From the IMG/VR virus record IMGVR_UViG_3300025418_001202, positions 1-25,355 of that record: a DNA stretch of 25,355 nucleotides. The stretch is one strand, 5' to 3'. This document shows, in pieces, positions 1,360 through 11,358 of this stretch. The number at the start of each line of letters is the position of its first letter. Within the stretch, counting starts at the first letter, position 1. The DNA comes from a virus. The notes under the pieces were generated by a model. It saw only the letters and a program-made list of their open reading frames with translations. It was not told the origin of the DNA and did not search any database. The position numbers and the translations under genes are program-made.

Positions 1360-1724
1360 GCTGTCATCCCCTTACCAATCTCAGCGGCGCACCTAACGAT
1401 TGCTCGGCGGGTTGCACTGTATGGGTCGTTACTTACACGTTCAACCTTATACTTTTGTCGGTAATTGTCTTTGACGTCAAAGTATCCGGCATATATGGCT
1501 ACGCCGTCGTCCTCCCCCGTGTAAAAGTCAATACTTAACTTCACCGCCAGCCGCAACGCATCGCCGTCATCGGTTAGTGGATTCCATAATTCAGTCCAAC
1601 AGTGGTCGTTTGGCGGCTCACCGACAGATTCATAATAAAACCAATTGCCGCTCTCAAAACGACCTTGATCGAACGGTTGCCCTGCCGCCTTAGCCGCATA
1701 CTCTAATAGTTCTTGGTCAGTCAT
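1356..1724 (-). CDS. Conserved phage hypothetical protein (WNPLTDDGDALRLAV type)
   Basis: This 122-residue protein matches from memory a widespread family of small phage and prophage proteins. Its hallmarks are a WNPLTDDGDALRLAVKL segment in the middle and ATRRAIVRCAAEIGK near the C-terminus. The biochemical function of that family is, to my knowledge, unknown. The C-terminal helix is basic and could contact nucleic acid. Ribosome site GGGGT precedes the ATG, and the gene is coupled to both neighbours by ATGA overlaps within the leftward operon. Confidence 0.78.
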   Translation of the reverse strand: MTDQELLEYAAKAAGQPFDQGRFESGNWFYYESVGEPPNDHCWTELWNPLTDDGDALRLAVKLSIDFYTGEDDGVAIYAGYFDVKDNYRQKYKVERVSNDPYSATRRAIVRCAAEIGKGMTA

Positions 1725-2332
1725 TTCGTTACCCCAAAATTAAAAGCAATTAGCTGACAAAACAGGCGATATTGTTCCAGATATTCTTGGTTGTTTTTAT
1801 GGGCTTCCTCAATAGCGTCTGAAAATTCTTTGACTGTCCCTGAAAAACATCCACAATTAACCCTAACGCCGATTTTTTTATCAATATGTGCAGTTGTAAA
1901 TCGGCCAGATGATTTAGAAGGTCCAATTTGTAATATATCTGCGGATTTCAACACCTGAGCATCACCGGACACCCACGCATCACCGGACACCCACGCATTG
2001 CCGGACACCCAAGCATTGCCGGACACCCGAGCATCACCGGACACCCGAGCATTGCCGGACACCCGAGCATTATCGAACACCCGAGCATCACCGGACACCC
2101 AAGCATCACCGGACACCCACGCATTGCCGGACACCCGAGCATTATCGAACACCCGAGCATTATCGAACACCCACGCATTGCCGGACGTTGACAGGTTTTT
2201 TTCTGTTTCAATATACCCGCCTAAATCACCAGCAGCCACCGAAGAAATTGCAACTAAAGCACGTATTCGATAAAGTGTTTTATCTCCCAATTGTTTTGCA
2301 TCGTTTGCAAGCAATTCATATTTTTCGTTCAT
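1721..2332 (-). CDS. Hexapeptide-repeat (left-handed beta-helix-like) phage protein
   Basis: This is a 203-residue protein. Residues 1-48 form a conserved N-terminal cap (YELLANDAKQLGDKTLYRIRA, then GDLGGYIETEKNLS) seen in phage proteins of this type. Residues about 50-127 are thirteen tandem six-residue units of the form [S/F][G/D][N/D]A[W/R]V. The last ~75 residues are non-repetitive. Six-residue periodicity with a small residue and an aliphatic residue per rung is typical of stacked beta-helices such as the LbetaH fold. No catalytic function is evident. Ribosome site GAGGTG supports the ATG. Repeat number is probably variable because the DNA repeats are nearly identical. The other two readings of the repeat are also open and should not be annotated. 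Confidence 0.8.
   Translation of the reverse strand: MNEKYELLANDAKQLGDKTLYRIRALVAISSVAAGDLGGYIETEKNLSTSGNAWVFDNARVFDNARVSGNAWVSGDAWVSGDARVFDNARVSGNARVSGDARVSGNAWVSGNAWVSGDAWVSGDAQVLKSADILQIGPSKSSGRFTTAHIDKKIGVRVNCGCFSGTVKEFSDAIEEAHKNNQEYLEQYRLFCQLIAFNFGVTK
1952..2185 (-). repeat. Thirteen tandem 18-bp repeats inside the hexapeptide-repeat gene
   Basis: The tract is exactly 13 x 18 bp. Units alternate between an SG[N/D]A[W/R]V type (ten copies, DNA core around gcattgccggacaccc or gcatcaccggacaccc) and an FDNARV type (three copies, gcattatcgaacaccc). The units run directly into one another with no spacers, so this is a protein-coding minisatellite rather than a CRISPR array. Confidence 0.95.
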
Positions 2333-4170: not shown

Positions 4171-4356
4171 TTATTTCGAGTTTCCCGACGAGAGCAGCGC
4201 CTCTAATGCGGCTGCGTCCCACAAAAGGCGGCGATTCGGCAGCTTTATGGGGCGTAGCCCTAGGTAGTGCCCATCGCGACAAAGTGCGGCGCGAATTGTC
4301 TGAGGCTTGATTTTCAGGTGCTCGGCTAACACCTCGGTTGATAAACGTGTTTGCAT
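4171..4356 (-). CDS. Small helix-turn-helix DNA-binding protein
   Basis: This 61-residue protein has a MerR/AlpA-like helix-turn-helix: LSTEVLAEHLKIKPQTIRAAL, followed by a beta-hairpin wing (LGLRPIKLPNRRLLW) and a final helix (AAALEALLSSG). ATG at 4356 is chosen because GGAG sits six bases upstream; the longer frame starts at TTG 4368 and overlaps that site. It is the second of three small HTH proteins in the left operon. It may control excision or early transcription. Confidence 0.72.
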   Translation of the reverse strand: MQTRLSTEVLAEHLKIKPQTIRAALCRDGHYLGLRPIKLPNRRLLWDAAALEALLSSGNSK

Positions 4357-4406
4357 TTCATGCTCCAATAAAATTAAAATAAATTACGTGCGATCTTTCT
4401 AAATTA

Positions 4407-5018
4407 TTAAATTGATAATCTGCGGACCGCGCGAGCGCGCCACTCAGCGGACTTGATGTCGCTGCTCTGGTAGCCATCGCCGAAACCCTGATACCAAGCG
4501 TCGTAGGAGTTCGAAGCGTGCTGCGTAGACGACCAGTAGCACCCCTCTTCAAAAGCCTCGCTACCGCCCGTCTGAAAAACCTTGGCAGGCGTTTGAACTG
4601 GCAACTCAGGCGCGTAAGGTCGAGTTGGGTTGACGGCTGAAAGATTAATACCTGACCGAGCCCAGCAAGAATTTTTCCAAGTGCCGGGTTTCAAGTTCCG
4701 GTACAAGATTTCAAGTTCGTCTTGCGACGGCAAATACCAATCACTAGTCTCACCAATCGTTAAATCAAGCGCCCATTGAGCCAGCTTGCTACCAGCTTCT
4801 GCCATGGCTTGCGTATTTGCCACCCCGTCGAAGTAAGATTTTGCGCCAGTTACATCTTTGTTCCGACCGTTCCACTTCTTTCCTAAGCACTCGCCCAACG
4901 ACTTGGGAGCGACGATCAAAGCAAAAATTTGTTGATCAATCAAAATACGGCCGGCATAGAATCCGCCTCCCATCGAGGTGCCCAAAATGGGTGCGATTTC
5001 TGTTGTTGATGATTTCAT
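4407..5018 (-). CDS. DUF1566 (Lcl-type, C-type-lectin-like) protein, possible hypervariable ligand-binding protein
   Basis: This is a 203-residue protein. Numbered from ATG 5018, the N-terminal part (GGGFYAGRILIDQQIFALIVAPK) is a beta-rich start. WYLPSQDELEILYRNL (about 94-109) and CYWSSTQ (about 160-166) are the hallmarks of the DUF1566/Lcl domain, which has a C-type-lectin-like fold. The C-terminus ends in WRARAVRRLSI. In this fold the loop between WSST and the final R-x-R-x-V-R strand is the variable face in targets of diversity-generating retroelements, and here it is rich in Asn, Ser, Tyr, Asp and Gly. ATG 5018 has ribosome site AAGGAA; the in-frame start at 5051 is a TTG. The gene sits between DNA-binding proteins and the exonuclease/RecT pair, an unusual place for an adhesin-like fold. 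Cellular role unknown. Confidence 0.7.
   Translation of the reverse strand: MKSSTTEIAPILGTSMGGGFYAGRILIDQQIFALIVAPKSLGECLGKKWNGRNKDVTGAKSYFDGVANTQAMAEAGSKLAQWALDLTIGETSDWYLPSQDELEILYRNLKPGTWKNSCWARSGINLSAVNPTRPYAPELPVQTPAKVFQTGGSEAFEEGCYWSSTQHASNSYDAWYQGFGDGYQSSDIKSAEWRARAVRRLSI
4422..4520 (-). other. Candidate variable region with GC-rich end in the DUF1566 gene
   Basis: Codons 178-203 of the full frame (4443-4520) are mostly of the NNY type (CAC, AAC, TCC, TAC, GAC, GGC, AGC, ATC and similar), broken by constant Q, W, K and E codons. That is what A-directed mutagenesis of AAC/AAT codons leaves behind. The segment ends in a GC-rich run (4422-4442, 18 of 21 bases G or C) encoding the conserved R-A-R-A-V-R, placed like the initiation-of-mutagenic-homology element of known systems. 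There is no reverse transcriptase and no template repeat in this window, so this is a hypothesis. Confidence 0.3.
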
Positions 5019-5040: not shown

Positions 5041-5793
5041 TTAAAAGTCAATGTCCGTTAAGACTGGTGCATGGCTAAACGTCATGCGTCGATAAACCTC
5101 TCGGCAGCGATCAACGTCACCGCCGCAATACGTGGCAACATCGGCAACTCGCCCGGCCAAAACAAAGTCGTAAACTTTGCTGCCATCAATCTCGTCGCCA
5201 ATCTCTGAACCCTTGGTGGCGATTCCAAGAATTCTGCAAAGTTTGTCCAGGCTGACCATCTTCCCGACACCCGCCCATTGAGTCATCGTGTCGTAAACGT
5301 CCTCCCCCCATGGCTTGGCGTTAAACGGAATAATTGCTGGCGGTTCGATGCCAAGCAAAATTGACCGATGAAAAATAAACCTAAGGTCAAAGCCAACAAT
5401 GTTGTGACCAACAAAGACGGGCGGCCTATTTGACGTTGTGTTGTATGAGTCTTTGATAATTGAAAACAAGTCAGTCAGAATTTTTGGTTCCGCGCTTTTC
5501 CAATCTTCGCTATATAGGTTGATCGGCGCATCGTCACCAATAGCGATCGATGCAGAAACAATCTGCCCATACGCACCGTCAAACGATGTTTTGCGGTGGC
5601 GCTCGTCGATTGCGGCATCTATTTCTGCCATTTTTTCTTCGACATACGAATTGATCTTTTCTTGATCTTTGTAATTGCCCGGTGCCTTGATTGCGGCCTT
5701 TTGAACTGCGGCATCCGCCTGCAGCGCACTCATTACACTTGGGTGCTGTCCGGGGATCGTTTCAATATCTAAAAAATATGGGATTCGTTTCAT
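5041..5793 (-). CDS. DEDDy-type 3'-5' exonuclease (PolB exonuclease-like, PF10108 type)
   Basis: This is a 250-residue protein. It has all motifs of a DnaQ-like exonuclease: Exo I FLDIET (D9, E11), Exo II VGHNIVGFDLRF (N131, D136), and Exo III YCGGD (Y222, D226), which makes it the DEDDy subclass. The overall pattern fits the predicted 3'-5' exonuclease family related to the PolB proofreading domain. It probably trims 3' ends of DNA during phage recombination or repair. It overlaps recT by 4 nt, so the two are made together and probably act together. Ribosome site AAAGG precedes the ATG. A PolB-like exonuclease instead of RecE or lambda Exo is less common as a RecT partner. Confidence 0.85.
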   Translation of the reverse strand: MKRIPYFLDIETIPGQHPSVMSALQADAAVQKAAIKAPGNYKDQEKINSYVEEKMAEIDAAIDERHRKTSFDGAYGQIVSASIAIGDDAPINLYSEDWKSAEPKILTDLFSIIKDSYNTTSNRPPVFVGHNIVGFDLRFIFHRSILLGIEPPAIIPFNAKPWGEDVYDTMTQWAGVGKMVSLDKLCRILGIATKGSEIGDEIDGSKVYDFVLAGRVADVATYCGGDVDRCREVYRRMTFSHAPVLTDIDF

Positions 5794-6731
5794 GCGGCTA
5801 CCTTTTCGCGTTTTGCTTCTAAATTTTTAATGATGCTTTCGTAGGCTAATTTCGGAATAAAACTCAGCGCGCTAACTTTGTATGCCGCTGTGATTTTTGA
5901 AATTGGGCAATCAACCTCTTGCGCAAGCGCTTCGATTTCATCAATGTCTTTTTGATTAAGCATCGGTTGATTTTGAGTGGCCGGAGCTGGTGCCTGATCA
6001 CGTTGTTCGATAATCGTTGGCTCGTTGACCAGTTCAGCAAGGCCCTCGTCGCTGTCGGTGTTGAGCAAGTGAATCGCTTTTTCAAGTCGGTCAACTTTCG
6101 GCCAATATTTGTATGCCTGTTTAATCACCGTTTTGCGGATCATTTCGATTTCGTCAGTCACCCAAGGGCAAGTCACCTTTTTTGCCAAATAAGCGCGATA
6201 TGCCGATGATCGATCTCGTATGTCATAGATGGCCTTGATTGGCACAGCGTGACTCAAGTAATCACCGTCGGCGGTTTTAACAACTGCATAACAACCGACA
6301 ATCTCTCCGCGATCCGTTGCAAAAGGGTTGTATTGATGCGTAGGCTGGCGATCAATCCCGTTTAGAGAAAACGTATCAGCCTCTCGAACTATCGCGGCCT
6401 GTGCCCATTTAATCGATCCTGTCGCGGTTGCGAGATCAATAAGCCCCATGTAACTAATGTCAAGGCAGATTTTTTTATCTCGCGGCACCAGATACGCTTG
6501 CCTCTTTGCTGGTGACAAACTCAGTCCAATCGCTGAAACATTGCTGACTGCATTGATCACACTTTGCTTATTGCTCATGGCAATCCCAATCGCGTAATCA
6601 GATTGGGTAAGCTGCTGCAGAGCAAATACAGACTCACGCTCAAAGTTGATCGATTCATCGACCGAGCGCTGTTTGAAGTCTGCTTCAACAGACATGATTG
6701 TCTGTTCGATCATTTGAAGCGCATTACTCAT
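5790..6731 (-). CDS. recT: RecT family single-strand annealing recombinase
   Basis: This is a 313-residue protein, the usual length for RecT. Residues about 40-235 carry the family core: AIGIAMSNKQSVINAVSNVS, IGLSLSPAKRQAYLVPRDKK, ICLDISYMGLIDLA, IVGCYAVVK and PWVTDEIEMIRKTVIKQA, YKYWPKVDRL. The last ~75 residues are a Gln/Pro-rich linker and a helical tail that could contact partners such as host SSB. RecT binds single-stranded DNA and anneals complementary strands, giving the phage RecA-independent recombination. It is first of the exonuclease pair in the transcript (ribosome site GGAG) and translationally coupled to the exonuclease downstream. Confidence 0.95.
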   Translation of the reverse strand: MSNALQMIEQTIMSVEADFKQRSVDESINFERESVFALQQLTQSDYAIGIAMSNKQSVINAVSNVSAIGLSLSPAKRQAYLVPRDKKICLDISYMGLIDLATATGSIKWAQAAIVREADTFSLNGIDRQPTHQYNPFATDRGEIVGCYAVVKTADGDYLSHAVPIKAIYDIRDRSSAYRAYLAKKVTCPWVTDEIEMIRKTVIKQAYKYWPKVDRLEKAIHLLNTDSDEGLAELVNEPTIIEQRDQAPAPATQNQPMLNQKDIDEIEALAQEVDCPISKITAAYKVSALSFIPKLAYESIIKNLEAKREKVAA

Positions 6732-7279: not shown

Positions 7280-7312
7280 TTGTAAACCCCTTGAGTTAAG
7301 TGTCTGATTGAA

Positions 7313-7341
7313 AGTTTATTAAAAAATAAACATACAGTCAA
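7313..7341 (-). promoter_or_regulatory. Left early promoter (PL)
   Basis: On the minus strand, TTGACT (7341-7336) is followed after exactly 17 bp by TAAACT (7318-7313), the same two hexamers and spacing as the right promoter at 8477-8505. It starts leftward transcription about 25 bp before the ribosome site of the first left-operon gene. Shared sequence upstream and through the -35 (AAACGCTTGACT) is presumably operator. Confidence 0.75.
7314..7331. promoter_or_regulatory. Perfect inverted repeat overlapping the PL -10 (candidate operator)
   Basis: GTTTATT (7314-7320) and AATAAAC (7325-7331) form a perfect 7-bp palindrome with a 4-bp centre lying across the PL -10 and spacer. AATAAAC also occurs beside the right promoter (about 8460-8466 and 8498-8504), so it may be a half-site for CI or Cro. 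A second inverted repeat, GCAAATT (7361-7367) and AATTTGC (7404-7410), lies upstream; its role is unclear. Confidence 0.5.
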
Positions 7342-7409
7342 GCGTTTACTTAACTAAAAGGCAAATTTTTTTACTAGGGGAAACCCTTGGTAGATTTTTT
7401 ATGAATTTG

Positions 7410-7808
7410 CTAGTTATCAAAGCCGCGTTTCAGCCAGCGCAATAACAAAAAGATCCAGTAGCCAGCAAGCATTGAACACGCAACGCCTAAGGTCGGGGGT
7501 AAAAATGCCCATAACAACGGCTCAACGAGATATTTTATTGGCGGCCGTTCTAGTTGATATAACTCAATGCATTGACGTAGCTCTTGCATTTGGTTTTCAG
7601 GCGTTCTGCTTCGCCTGTCGGACAAGCTTGGCACGTTACGCCAACTGCACACGTCTGGGGCGCGGCGCTTTTGCTCAGCTTCATGATCAAAATAATACCG
7701 ATACCAAACCCCGATTTCGCTGGAAACGTCGGCTTTGACTAAAACAAATGCCATCCAAAAACAAGATGCAGCTACCCAGACCCTAAAAAACCCGCGCCTT
7801 ATATTCAT
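7410..7808 (-). CDS. Two-helix membrane protein in the repressor operon (rex position)
   Basis: This is a 132-residue protein. An N-terminal transmembrane helix (about 8-24, FRVWVAASCFWMAFVLV) and a C-terminal one (about 96-122, LLWAFLPPTLGVACSMLAG...) flank a ~70-residue charged loop with a few cysteines, probably periplasmic. The opening RRGFFRVWVAAS resembles small membrane proteins of proteobacterial prophages. Its ATG overlaps the repressor stop as ATGA, so it is co-translated with CI and should be made in lysogens. In lambda this slot holds rexA/rexB. A superinfection-exclusion or other lysogen-protective role is therefore a reasonable inference, but there is no family evidence. Confidence 0.65.
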   Translation of the reverse strand: MNIRRGFFRVWVAASCFWMAFVLVKADVSSEIGVWYRYYFDHEAEQKRRAPDVCSWRNVPSLSDRRSRTPENQMQELRQCIELYQLERPPIKYLVEPLLWAFLPPTLGVACSMLAGYWIFLLLRWLKRGFDN

Positions 7809-8437
7809 AATTTTCCGCCTGTTTGGTATTCAATTACGACGCCGATAACGCGCAGAGCTGGGTCGTCAATTTCTTTTGTTGGGTACGCCGAATTTAACGG
7901 TTTTAAGTACCATGCAGATCCATCGGTTGTTAGTTTTTTGAATGTAGCTTTTTGATTTGTCACGTCTTTCGCTATGACATAATCCCCGGCTTTTGGTGCT
8001 CGCTCAGGGTCAACGACAATGATGCAACCGTCTGGAAAGCTTACGCCAGCTCCGGTGTTGGTCATGCTGTCGCCTTCAACTTGCAAGGCAAAGCTTGTCG
8101 GCGACGGAATAGTGTGTATTGGATTAACCCAGTCATCGGCTTCGCCAGGCAAGTGCGGATCGTTAATTTCCGACAGGCTGCCGGCTCTAACCCATGATAT
8201 TACGGGTACGCGCGTGGCTTTTTTGGCCGTCGGCAACCAGTCTGTGACATTTGAATATTCAATTTTATCCAAATAAAACTTATCCATCCCATATGTTTCT
8301 TCAAGCCTGCGAGCGGCTTTTTCGCCAAATGAAGCTTTCCCGTTAATCAATTGAGAAATATAGCTTTTCTCGCTGGGCGGGATGGAGTGGGTTTCAAACC
8401 AAATTTTTAAGTTTTGCCTGCGGGTGTCGGGTGTCAT
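7805..8437 (-). CDS. cI: CI-like phage repressor, S24/LexA-type self-cleaving
   Basis: This is a 210-residue protein. The N-terminal part (SYISQLINGKASFGEKAARRLEE) is a short helix-turn-helix DNA-binding domain. The C-terminal domain is an S24 peptidase: cleavage site A85-G86 (VRAGS), nucleophile S124 (GDSM) and general base K167 (TFKKL). It should bind operators around 7313-7341 and 8466-8505, hold both early promoters off, and be inactivated by RecA-stimulated self-cleavage. No strong ribosome site precedes the ATG, as is common for cI genes. It is transcribed leftward and coupled to the membrane-protein gene downstream. Confidence 0.93.
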   Translation of the reverse strand: MTPDTRRQNLKIWFETHSIPPSEKSYISQLINGKASFGEKAARRLEETYGMDKFYLDKIEYSNVTDWLPTAKKATRVPVISWVRAGSLSEINDPHLPGEADDWVNPIHTIPSPTSFALQVEGDSMTNTGAGVSFPDGCIIVVDPERAPKAGDYVIAKDVTNQKATFKKLTTDGSAWYLKPLNSAYPTKEIDDPALRVIGVVIEYQTGGKL

Positions 8438-8465
8438 TCTGTGATTTTGATTAGTAAATAATAAA

Positions 8466-8505
8466 CAAGCAAACGCTTGACTTTAAGTTAAGCAAACAAT
8501 AAACT
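8466..8505 (+). promoter_or_regulatory. Right early promoter (PR) with overlapping operator
   Basis: TTGACT (8477-8482), 17 bp, TAAACT (8500-8505): identical hexamers and spacing to PL. A perfect inverted repeat, CAAGC-AAAC-GCTTG (8466-8479), overlaps the -35, and a near copy of it sits at the same place in PL (TAAGT-AAAC-GCTTG on the minus strand). This is the best candidate for the CI/Cro operator. A further AAGCAAAC half-site lies at 8490-8497. The leftward repressor promoter must also lie in 8438-8510; a weak minus-strand TATTAT near 8458-8463 could be its -10. Confidence 0.75.
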
Positions 8506-8532
8506 CACAAGTAATAACAAAAGGGTTTGTGT

Positions 8533-8769
8533 ATGGATCTGAAAACATACTTGGCAACAGCAGGGCGCGGCGGGTGCTCAGCACTCTCCGAAGCAATGGG
8601 TATCTCCATGTCTTATTTATCGCAGCTCGCCTCGGGAAAAGCCGCAATTTCGCCCACTCGTTGCGTTGAATTTGAGCGATTAACAAATGGCGCAGTAACC
8701 CGGCAAGACCTTCGTCCCGACGACTGGTCTTTGATCTGGCCTGAGCTGATTGAAAAGGTGAATTCATGA
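8533..8769 (+). CDS. cro: Cro-like repressor (YdaS type)
   Basis: This 78-residue protein has an N-terminal helix-turn-helix of the Cro/YdaS class (LSEAMGISMSYLSQLASGKAAIS) and a C-terminal segment typical of the class (FERLTNGAVTRQDLRPDDW). ATG 8533 with AAGGG seven bases upstream is preferred to the in-frame TTG at 8527. It is the first gene of the rightward transcript, divergent from cI, and should compete with CI for the operators at PR and PL to favour lytic growth. It overlaps the CII gene as ATGA. Confidence 0.88.
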   Translation: MDLKTYLATAGRGGCSALSEAMGISMSYLSQLASGKAAISPTRCVEFERLTNGAVTRQDLRPDDWSLIWPELIEKVNS

Positions 8770-9074
8770 GCGAAGTATCGGCCGCCCAGCTTGATTGCGC
8801 ACGCAAGATCCACACACAGATCTTGAAGGGGCTTTCAACGGTGGGACAAGTTGAAATCGCAGCTCGCACAGGATCGAGCGAGTCGACTATTTCGCGACTG
8901 AAAGACGGTCAGTTGGATTTGCTATCGAACGTGCTGGCTGCGGCCGGTTTGAAAGTGGTGCCAGCTCAGTACAAGTGTATTGATCCCGCGATTGCTCAAG
9001 CCATGATGTTGATGTACCAGTCGGCCATGAAGCATATCGAAAATCCAGCCTCGCTTCTGTGGGGTGATGAATGA
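8766..9074 (+). CDS. cII: CII-like transcriptional activator
   Basis: This 102-residue protein is close to lambda CII in length and layout. The helix-turn-helix lies at about 26-48 (VGQVEIAARTGSSESTISRL), followed by LDLLSNVLAAAGLKVVP, the typical CII continuation. CII activates the establishment promoter for cI and sets the lysogeny decision. A clear TTGC-N6-TTGC site was not found in the cI-cro interval, so its binding sites may differ. It is coupled to cro and ninB by ATGA overlaps. Confidence 0.85.
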   Translation: MSEVSAAQLDCARKIHTQILKGLSTVGQVEIAARTGSSESTISRLKDGQLDLLSNVLAAAGLKVVPAQYKCIDPAIAQAMMLMYQSAMKHIENPASLLWGDE

Positions 9075-9469
9075 TTTTCAACCTAATCAACGAGGCTGTG
9101 AAACAGCGTGCTTGCGAAGCAATTATGCAAGCTGCCGAAGGCATGCGCGTCGAGATCAAAGAGCGTAAGAGATCGTTAGATCAAAACGCTGCGCAGTGGC
9201 CCATCTTAGATGCCTTCTCGAAACAATTGAAGTGGCCTGTAAATGGCGAATTAACGGCGCTTACCCCCGAAGAGTTTAAAGACATTTTGACAGCTGCGTT
9301 TTATGGCGAAACCGTGAGGCTAGCCGCTGGGTTGAACGGTGGGGTTGTCATGCTTGGCAAGCGCACAAGCAAATTTAGCAAGAAGCAGTTTAGCGAGTGG
9401 CTTGAGTTTTTGAATTTTGTTGCGGCAGAGCGAGGCGTTGTTATTTATCACGACAAGAGGGCAGCATGA
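9071..9469 (+). CDS. ninB: NinB/Orf-family recombination protein
   Basis: This 132-residue protein has the NinB pattern: KRSLDQNAAQWPILDAFSKQL, ALTPEEFKDILTAAF, NGGVVMLGKRTSKFSKKQFSEWLEF and a C-terminal ERGVVIYHD. In lambda, NinB (Orf) binds single-stranded DNA and can replace RecFOR in loading recombination. Its place just after cII and before replication genes fits the nin region of lambdoid phages. It overlaps both neighbours by 4 nt. Confidence 0.9.
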   Translation: MIFNLINEAVKQRACEAIMQAAEGMRVEIKERKRSLDQNAAQWPILDAFSKQLKWPVNGELTALTPEEFKDILTAAFYGETVRLAAGLNGGVVMLGKRTSKFSKKQFSEWLEFLNFVAAERGVVIYHDKRAA

Positions 9470-9993
9470 ACGATCAGGTTGAATGGCGGTCAATTAAGGT
9501 CTATCCGCATTATCAGGTAAGCAACACTGGGCTTGTAAGAAGCGCAAACACAGAGTTGAAATTGATTCTGAAATCAACCGGATATATGTGTTGTTCTCTT
9601 AGTGGACATCAATTTTTAGTACACCGACTGGTTGCCGCTGCCTTTATTCCAAATCCTTTGAACAAGCCTCAGGTAAATCACATCGACGGAAATCGGTCAA
9701 ACAATTTTCTCGCAAACTTAGAGTGGACGACGGCTAGCGAAAATCAGCAGCATTCATGGGATTGCCTAGGAAGAATAAATTACTTTCAAGGGAAGTTTGG
9801 CAAAGAGCATGTCACTAGTAAGGCTGTAATTGCGACCTGCATGAAAACTGGTAAAGAAACTTTTTTTCATGCTGGCATGGATGCCGTTAGGCTGGGGTTC
9901 AGAAGCGACAGTATAAGCAGAGCTTGTAACGGCGTTATTCGTCATCACGCCAAGCATTATTGGCGCTTTGCGGACGAAAGGATGGCAGCATGA
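9466..9993 (+). CDS. HNH homing-type endonuclease with NUMOD4 domain
   Basis: This is a 175-residue protein. Residues about 4-25 (EWRSIKVYPHYQVSNTGLVR) are a NUMOD4 DNA-binding motif. Residues about 50-90 (VHRLVAAAF, VNHIDGNRSNNFLANLEWTT) form an HNH_3 nuclease core with H72. Residues about 118-170 (IATCMKTGKETFF, then SISRACNGV...HYWRFAD) look like a NUMOD1/IENR-type DNA-contacting repeat. Such proteins are free-standing homing endonucleases. It has inserted between ninB and the next gene with clean 4-nt overlaps on both sides, so the operon stays coupled. Its AT-richer middle suggests a separate origin from its neighbours. Confidence 0.9.
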   Translation: MNDQVEWRSIKVYPHYQVSNTGLVRSANTELKLILKSTGYMCCSLSGHQFLVHRLVAAAFIPNPLNKPQVNHIDGNRSNNFLANLEWTTASENQQHSWDCLGRINYFQGKFGKEHVTSKAVIATCMKTGKETFFHAGMDAVRLGFRSDSISRACNGVIRHHAKHYWRFADERMAA

Positions 9994-10328
9994 TCGCAAA
10001 AGAAAACCCGTTGCGATCAGAGCAGCACCGGCGAGTAATTGCGTCGCTCGGATGCTCGATGTGTGGCATGGAAGGATTCACACAAGCGGCGCATGTCAAT
10101 TACGGCAAAAGCATTGGTCAGAAGGCGTGCGACTCGTTGACTTTTCCTATGTGCCAGTGGTGCCATCAGTTTTTAGACCAGAGCGGCAAGCTTTCAAAAG
10201 TAGCCCGCAGAAACTTAGAGGCTAGTTACGTCAACAGAACCAGATCCCTGCTGATTCGTCGCGGGATGTGGCCGGAGTTTGTTGAACAGGCATATCAAAG
10301 AGCAAAAAAATGGGAGATCACGGCGTGA
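9990..10328 (+). CDS. HNH-like nuclease of the DUF968/YbcO type
   Basis: This is a 112-residue protein. Its metal-site pattern is C22-x2-C25, H35 in AAHVNYGK, and C55-x2-C58-H59, matching the DUF968/YbcO group of treble-clef (HNH-like) nucleases found in nin regions of lambdoid phages. The middle GQKACDSLTFPMC is typical. ATG 9990, overlapping the previous stop as ATGA, is preferred to an in-frame TTG at 9960. It probably cuts branched or single-stranded DNA in recombination and replication; activity is inferred from the fold. Confidence 0.8.
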   Translation: MIAKENPLRSEQHRRVIASLGCSMCGMEGFTQAAHVNYGKSIGQKACDSLTFPMCQWCHQFLDQSGKLSKVARRNLEASYVNRTRSLLIRRGMWPEFVEQAYQRAKKWEITA

Positions 10329-11074
10329 GGGTCGAAAAGATTGGAGACGCAACGCTTTACTTAGCCGATTGCAATGATGTTTTACCGCTGATCAAGGGGG
10401 GGGTGGATGCTGTGATTACTGACCCTCCTTACAGCGAAGTGACTCACAAAAATGCAAAAAGCAATCGGACTGTCGGTTATGGAAATAAAGCGATTGATTT
10501 TTTACCAATAACTGCCGGTGAGCTTTCCAAAATCATTAGCGACTGTTCCTCAATATGCTCGGGCTGGTTTGTAGCAACGATGGAATGGCGGCATATTGCA
10601 GAGTTCGAACAATCGCCTCCTTGCGGATGGGAATTTGTCCGGTTTGGAGTGTGGGTAAAGACCAATCCAATGCCGCAAATTAGCGCAGACCGTCCGGCGC
10701 AAGGATGGGAAGGTATTGCTTATCTCTATTCCAAAAAAGGTGAAACCAAAAAGAGTTGGAATGGCGGCGGCTCTCATGGAAATTATGTAGGGGCTTTGGT
10801 TTCAGATGGCCTACACCCAACGGGCAAGCCTCTTGGATTGGTTCGCGGCTTTGTGGATAAATTTACAAACCCACTCGAATTGATCCTGGATCCGTTTATG
10901 GGATCTGGTACCACAGGGGTTGCCGCGATTGAAATGGGCAGAAAGTTTATAGGCATCGAGCGGGAGGCCTCCTATTTTGAAATTGCGTGCGAACGAATAG
11001 AAAGGGCGACAAAGCAGATCGGCCTTTTCGACGAACCTAAACAAATCAAATTTGAGCAAGGGGCTTTGTTATGA
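10325..11074 (+). CDS. DNA methyltransferase, beta class (N6-adenine or N4-cytosine)
   Basis: This is a 249-residue protein when started at GTG 10325. That start overlaps the upstream stop as GTGA and has GGGAG eight bases before it; ATG 10310 is an alternative that would add five residues. Motif IV DPPY (about residues 33-36) precedes the AdoMet-binding motif I DPFMGSGTTG (about 189-198), the order of beta-class DNA methyltransferases. HPTGKPLGL and GRKFIGIERE are also typical. It modifies an amino group of A or C in a target that cannot be read here. No cognate restriction enzyme is next to it, so it is an orphan enzyme, probably for protection from host restriction or for control of packaging or replication. 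Confidence 0.9.
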   Translation: MRVEKIGDATLYLADCNDVLPLIKGGVDAVITDPPYSEVTHKNAKSNRTVGYGNKAIDFLPITAGELSKIISDCSSICSGWFVATMEWRHIAEFEQSPPCGWEFVRFGVWVKTNPMPQISADRPAQGWEGIAYLYSKKGETKKSWNGGGSHGNYVGALVSDGLHPTGKPLGLVRGFVDKFTNPLELILDPFMGSGTTGVAAIEMGRKFIGIEREASYFEIACERIERATKQIGLFDEPKQIKFEQGALL

Positions 11075-11358
11075 GAACCCAAATGGCAGAAACGTCCGTA
11101 GCCGCGTTTCATTCCTTCCGAATACCGGAGTTGCAGAATAAAGAAATAGAGGTTCTGGCGGCGATTCAAGAGGCTGGCAAATCCATGACTCGCGAGCAGA
11201 TTGCTCAGATGTTGAATTGGAAAGAGTCAGCTGTTTGCGGTCGCGTAAATAGCTTGGTGTCAAAAGGTGTACTCGAAGAGTCTGGAACCGTTAAGACATC
11301 AAGCGGTCGGTCGGCAAAGTTGGTTGGGTTGCCAGTGATTCAAAGGAGTTTGTTTTGA
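11071..11358 (+). CDS. Winged-helix DNA-binding protein
   Basis: This 95-residue protein has a winged helix at about residues 24-90: NKEIEVLAAIQEAGKSMTRE, QIAQMLNWKESAVCGRVNSL, VSKGVLEESGTVKTSSGR. This form, with an ending like 'SGR.AKLVGLP', is common in phage replication regions just ahead of the initiator gene. It may regulate or assist replication initiation. ATG 11071 overlaps the methyltransferase stop and has AGGGG in front. Confidence 0.8.
   Translation: MRTQMAETSVAAFHSFRIPELQNKEIEVLAAIQEAGKSMTREQIAQMLNWKESAVCGRVNSLVSKGVLEESGTVKTSSGRSAKLVGLPVIQRSLF

Follow-up and report, generated by a model that had tools for sequence, protein, structure and literature searches.

The diversity-generating retroelements (DGRs) of phages are usually explained as host-range switches that work on tail adhesins. 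In phage BPP-1, the DGR target (mtd) is a late-region tail fibre with a hairpin after its variable region (VR) (PMC3240598), and in published surveys the targets of viral DGRs are mostly tail proteins (PMC8144416). In Treponema denticola, isolates without the reverse transcriptase (RT) and template repeat (TR) keep targets, which have been interpreted as what remains of a lost core (PMC4891356). We analyzed a DUF1566 gene in a linear IMG/VR virus contig of 25,355 bp (hereafter the window, meaning the whole stretch of DNA analyzed), which is a fragment. We propose, with a probability of about 0.78, that this gene encodes a C-type-lectin-like target that was once diversified by an early-region phage DGR, and that the cassette has been lost while one rewritten variant was frozen. 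The gene and its variable end are laid out as follows:

4407 to 5018, minus strand: Lcl_C/DUF1566 variable protein, putative orphan DGR target (Pfam PF07603, phrog_4245)
4420 to 4523, minus strand: VR of 104 nt, in register with the TRs of relatives (TR mismatch counts)
4420 to 4442, minus strand: GC-rich invariant 3' end of the VR, encoding WRARAVR and IMH-like (sequence; GTCCGCAG is common to the VRs and TRs of relatives)

The open reading frame runs from an ATG at 5018 to its end at 4407 on the minus strand and encodes 203 amino acids. In a profile search the product matched Lcl_C (PF07603) with an E-value of 2e-10 and 41.3 bits, above the curated cut-off of 34.9; it also matched phrog_4245, a PHROG of unknown function, and shares 45-68% identity with phage DGR targets. 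These matches, and a position behind genes for RecT and an exonuclease, agree with the original prediction of a DUF1566 lectin-like early protein. The fold is probably that of a lectin, and a PDB sequence search returned a weak match to HbP1 (8q4e, E 0.006) that is confined to the last 43 residues. We recognized no signal peptide or transmembrane segment in the protein, nor any hydrophobic stretch of transmembrane scale (best 19-residue mean 1.25). The other features from which a retroelement-style tail had been predicted are likewise present: the WSST motif at residues 162-165, a loop rich in NNY codons (20 of 26 in residues 167-192 vs 81 of 160 in residues 1-160; Fisher p = 0.01) and a GC content that goes up toward the GC-rich 3' end. 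RARAVR (residues 194-199) is encoded where it had been placed, with the correction that it spans exactly 4422-4439, since an end at 4442 takes in the preceding Trp. In separate scans, PADLOC gave 0 matches to anti-phage defence families, promoter-like matches did not exceed chance and terminator-like matches were slightly above it.

We found that the VR of the window aligns without gaps to 32 TRs of other phages and that its mismatches pile up at TR adenines. Against the consensus of these TRs, in which a site counted as conserved when at least 80% of the 32 carried the same base, mismatches occurred at 10 of 28 conserved adenines and at 4 of 49 conserved non-adenines (Fisher p = 0.004). By the same measure, the VRs of RT-bearing relatives have on average 11.1 adenine and 1.4 (sd 1.6) non-adenine mismatches; the four non-adenine changes of the window are thus somewhat above the mean of DGR-bearing relatives, as expected once the machinery is lost. 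Single TRs gave mismatches at 20/41 adenines and 15/73 other sites (L023), 16/33 and 15/72 (L003), and 15/35 and 15/73 (L005). The gene body, taken as a control, showed no consistent adenine bias. Given the gap-free alignment, the adenine-biased mismatches and the negative control, the VR was very probably the work of a DGR, and the comparison supports the view that the tail of the gene is, in origin, a genuine DGR variable region.

A first scan detected an RT in 13 of the 26 records that hold relatives of the target. A wider scan returned at least 535 relatives, and 80 loci among them were read. About 67 of the 90 relatives analyzed carry a TR and an RT 0.2-2.3 kb downstream of the target; the TRs, found by scans that allowed any base at a template adenine, lie downstream of target 1 and within about 2.3 kb of it. 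In dozens of loci (L003, L005, L023, L057 and L099 among them), VR and TR differ at 8-18 adenines and, in most, at 0-2 other positions, and nearly all of the closest relatives of the window's target are verified DGR targets. Most DGR-bearing relatives encode two small lectin-like targets, and an RT-15 RNA lies just upstream of the TR and ends at its start (found in L003, L005, L023, L037 and L042). The Pseudomonas phages LPPA56 and Cruim01 hold targets, RT-15 RNA, TR and RT in their early regions. In LPPA56 (L037, OR188718.1) the complete DGR, with two targets, a bAvd-like gene ahead of the RT-15 RNA, TR and RT, occupies 7989-11098, where the record annotates the genes as hypothetical proteins only. 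Variation in the relatives is active: in L058, L061 and L066 the target bodies are 0-1 bases apart in 470, the VRs are 18-19 bases apart, and each VR-TR mismatch tested falls on a TR adenine. Of the two outcomes named in the original prediction as refuting it, one was observed, in that no template was found locally, and the other was not, in that relatives do differ at TR adenines. Relatives of any kind were present in 8 of 399 sampled genomes of one bacterial order. In G083, a target lies on one of two contigs (C83 and C43) and a DGR-type RT with an RT-15 RNA on the other; either the assembly could be split, or one lysogen could contain both a target and a DGR.

A further element distinguishes the VRs of the family:

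4400 to 4415, minus strand: two units of a period-8 AT-rich repeat, NNATTTAN (comparison with the post-VR repeats of relatives; a third unit at 4392-4399 is degenerate)

At least three such units (NNATTTAN) follow VR1 in 50 of 76 cases and VR2 in 42 of 62, and follow none of 57 TRs; shuffled sequence yields as many in 0.5%. Three to four units stand directly 3' of both VRs in L023, L054, L060, L064, L099 and others, compared with two in the window. A GC-rich inverted repeat (the hairpin/cruciform of the BPP-1 type) was not found in the 70 nt past the stop of the window's gene; it is also missing from most repeat-bearing loci, close RT-bearing relatives included, and is found in L037, L042 and L014. 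Judged from these patterns, the period-8 repeat may mark VRs as recipients in place of the known hairpin. A rival reading is an ordinary Lcl_C protein that was never a DGR target, with an NNY bias arisen by chance: Lcl_C proteins without DGRs exist, and the NNY excess by itself is modest (p = 0.01). The adenine-biased, gapless match to 32 TRs, the verified DGR targets among the nearest relatives and the partly retained repeat units already contradict such an origin, which we consider extremely improbable.

The gene stands in the early region of the phage, with these neighbors:

4171 to 4368, minus strand: small HTH_17 protein where relatives hold target 2, TR and RT (Pfam PF12728, E 3e-5, below cut-off)
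5041 to 5793, minus strand: PolB-type 3'-5' exonuclease, 22 bp upstream of the target (Pfam PF10108, phrog_403)
5790 to 6731, minus strand: RecT single-strand annealing protein, in the same operon as the target (Pfam PF03837, E 2e-28)
7805 to 8437, minus strand: CI/S24-type repressor, start of the leftward early region (position; Peptidase_S24 in the sister counterpart L002; similarity to the repressors of relatives)

The operon thus reads RecT, PolB-type exonuclease and, 22 bp on, the target. This place had been called unusual; it is real, but early neighbors are the rule among relatives, and an early location is typical of the target family. Upstream, the relatives have YqaJ/RecE nucleases, S24 repressors, DUF2303, ParB, RecT, RdgC and nucleotide kinases, and downstream they have integrases, serine recombinases, C5 methylases and Lar. 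No tail genes were recognized among the 25 most frequent neighbor families of each scan; one weak PHROG among the neighbor families bears the label virion structural protein, and rare exceptions are possible. A limited search of the literature found no description of an early-region class of phage DGRs. These neighborhoods bear on whether the target could be a virion adhesin encoded apart from the tail genes, whose diversification would shift host range as in BPP-1. The predominance of tail proteins among annotated viral DGR targets (PMC8144416) speaks for an adhesin, and tail adhesins of phages likewise lack signal peptides, but the neighbors are repressor, recombination, partition, methylase and integrase genes, and no separate attachment domain was recognized in the protein's roughly 200 aa. 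We regard an adhesin as rather unlikely and prefer to see the target as an early, cytoplasmic protein that would bind a host or competitor molecule; a cytoplasmic binder is favored because the gene lies in an early operon and its product has no hydrophobic segment of transmembrane scale.

We compared the window with a sister contig (G001/L002), a linear fragment of 33.5 kb that is near-identical to it (>99% outside the repressor region) and reaches the integrase and lysis genes. Two differences stand apart from the target: at window positions 7282-8688 the sister has an approximately 80% alike copy of the repressor region instead, which amounts to an immunity-module swap, and the gene for a YdcK-type beta-solenoid protein with hexapeptide-like repeats (1721-2332, minus strand) has an 18-bp indel in the sister, suggesting that its repeat number varies. 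The search for an RT and a template repeat in the phage, advised by the original prediction, turned up neither: Pfam found no RVT_1 domain in the window or in the sister, scans with an A-degenerate pattern and ungapped scans found no TR in the window, L002 or the whole of G001, and neither contig contains an RT-15 RNA (RF03018) or an RT remnant. One remnant candidate in the window matched at chance level (E 0.64) and was rejected; the other hits fall on the VR itself, probably because the called RT genes of relatives run through the TR. No RT scar is visible downstream of the window's gene. An RT and TR of the phage's own could lie in an unsampled part of the genome, given that both contigs are linear fragments with the tail-tip part outside and that remote targets are known in T. 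denticola (PMC4891356). Such a location is improbable: window and sister together span the whole early region from repressor to integrase, which in the window is intact up to the integrase without an RT, and those RT-bearing relatives that were examined have theirs no farther than about 2.3 kb from target 1. The target gene is identical through the VR in window and sister although the phages differ elsewhere, which is weak evidence of freezing because several other near-identical pairs in the family also share identical VRs and may each be one virus assembled twice.

Targets without an RT recur across the family. In a tree of 90 target bodies, built with the variable end excluded, 12 RT-less rows are dispersed among 67 rows with an RT and call for 12 changes, at least seven of them forced by well-supported branches; label shuffles showed no clustering of RT-less rows, as repeated losses at the tips would give. 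RT loss is thus repeated in the target family. Remnants of the RT C-terminus persist in L004 (107 residues), L074 (67), L050 (32) and L038 (29). In L013 and L015, the stretch that holds the TR and most of the RT in the close relative L014 is missing, the junction sits in a 7-base repeat (GCGCCTG), and the orphan VR of L013 fits the L014 TR with adenine-only changes. At the RT-less locus of L015 (junction at about 11530; compare L014 2130-3580), an upstream open reading frame is fused to the RT C-terminus. L078 is without target 2, TR and RT; between it and L060 the target body has 12 differences in 467 bases, and the L078 VR departs from the L060 TR at 19 adenines and two other positions. RVT_1 is absent from the complete genomes of two Pseudomonas syringae phages, Aurca01 and Medea1; the initial 482 bases of their first DUF1566 genes do not differ at all, 20 differences fall in the last 130, and over the scored segment their VRs differ from the TR of the RT-bearing relative Cruim01 at 12-18 adenines and 0-2 other sites. 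More distant DUF1566 proteins lie beside cI in the D3-like Pseudomonas phage PMG1 (L041, 4962-5450) and PMBT3 (L039, 5962-6615), whose records hold no RT. Loci related through the exonuclease (L046-L048) were considered as empty sites, but they have no target within the stretches examined and do not show one.

An orphan target could also still be rewritten in trans, with a resident prophage or a co-infecting relative supplying RT and template RNA, as the original prediction had suggested. This is mechanistically possible, because the BPP-1 machinery can be retargeted by the IMH and downstream elements (PMC3240598), and the window retains the GC-rich end and two of three post-VR repeat units; moreover, the orphan VRs of Aurca01 and Medea1 match the Cruim01 TR at essentially all non-adenine sites, and 19-20 VR positions separate the two phages, a pattern for which recent loss accounts equally well. 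We found no positive evidence for diversification in trans at the window, where the VR is identical to that of the otherwise differing sister and already has its four non-adenine changes, and with relatives in so few of the sampled genomes co-residence should be uncommon. We therefore give rewriting in trans little credence.

The preferred reading remains loss of the cassette, and the window would belong to the orphan class, its own loss probably older and without a visible scar. Because the window sits on a weakly supported branch and its nearest RT-bearing relatives are just 63-68% identical, we infer this loss rather than a gain of the cassette by the relatives. The ancestral cassette would have been of the type target 1, target 2, Avd, RT-15 RNA/TR and RT, in the early region. 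In the window's lineage, the operon would have lost template, RNA and RT (with target 2, if it was ever there), leaving behind a single, already rewritten variant, probably expressed early and now frozen in place. Its protein would most likely work inside the cell by binding a macromolecule of the host or of a competitor, with host proteins, defence proteins and components of competing phages as candidate ligands.

Our findings point to hypermutation acting on a phage protein other than those of the tail: dozens of temperate phages have a DGR between repressor and integrase, next to recombination genes, and in many relatives a target has outlived the mutagenic machinery. Should the targets act inside the cell, these phages own a hypervariable early effector whose ligand can be sought in the cultured Pseudomonas phages LPPA56, Cruim01, Medea1 and Aurca01, and the orphan targets would be natural end-points of selection, that is, variants worth fixing. 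We tentatively suggest, as a possibility short of an even chance, that a widespread class of temperate phages uses DGRs on small early cytoplasmic binders with roles in host takeover, counter-defence or superinfection, and that lineages, the window's among them, repeatedly fix a winner by deleting RT and template.

Compared with known systems, the family resembles the BPP-1 DGR in its C-terminal VR rewritten at TR adenines, its GC-rich invariant 3' end and the Avd-like protein and RT nearby, as in LPPA56. It differs in that the window's target lies in an early operon instead of among late tail genes, in that most VRs of the relatives are followed by AT-rich octamer repeats and not by a hairpin, and in that the window has neither RT nor TR. 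The T. denticola remnants share the retention of targets after loss of RT and TR, but those targets lie on a bacterial chromosome, whereas ours lie in early operons of phages, where losses were many and separate. DUF1566 is also the VR scaffold of DGR targets in the parts we consulted of surveys of bacteria and the human microbiome (PMC4159848, PMC6642488), the latter with several DUF1566 targets per cassette; those parts describe neither an early-region phage class nor orphans. Closest to the window are the DGRs of LPPA56 and Cruim01, whose early regions carry homologous targets, RT-15 RNA, TR and RT in that same order; their cassettes are complete, whereas the window retains one target only.
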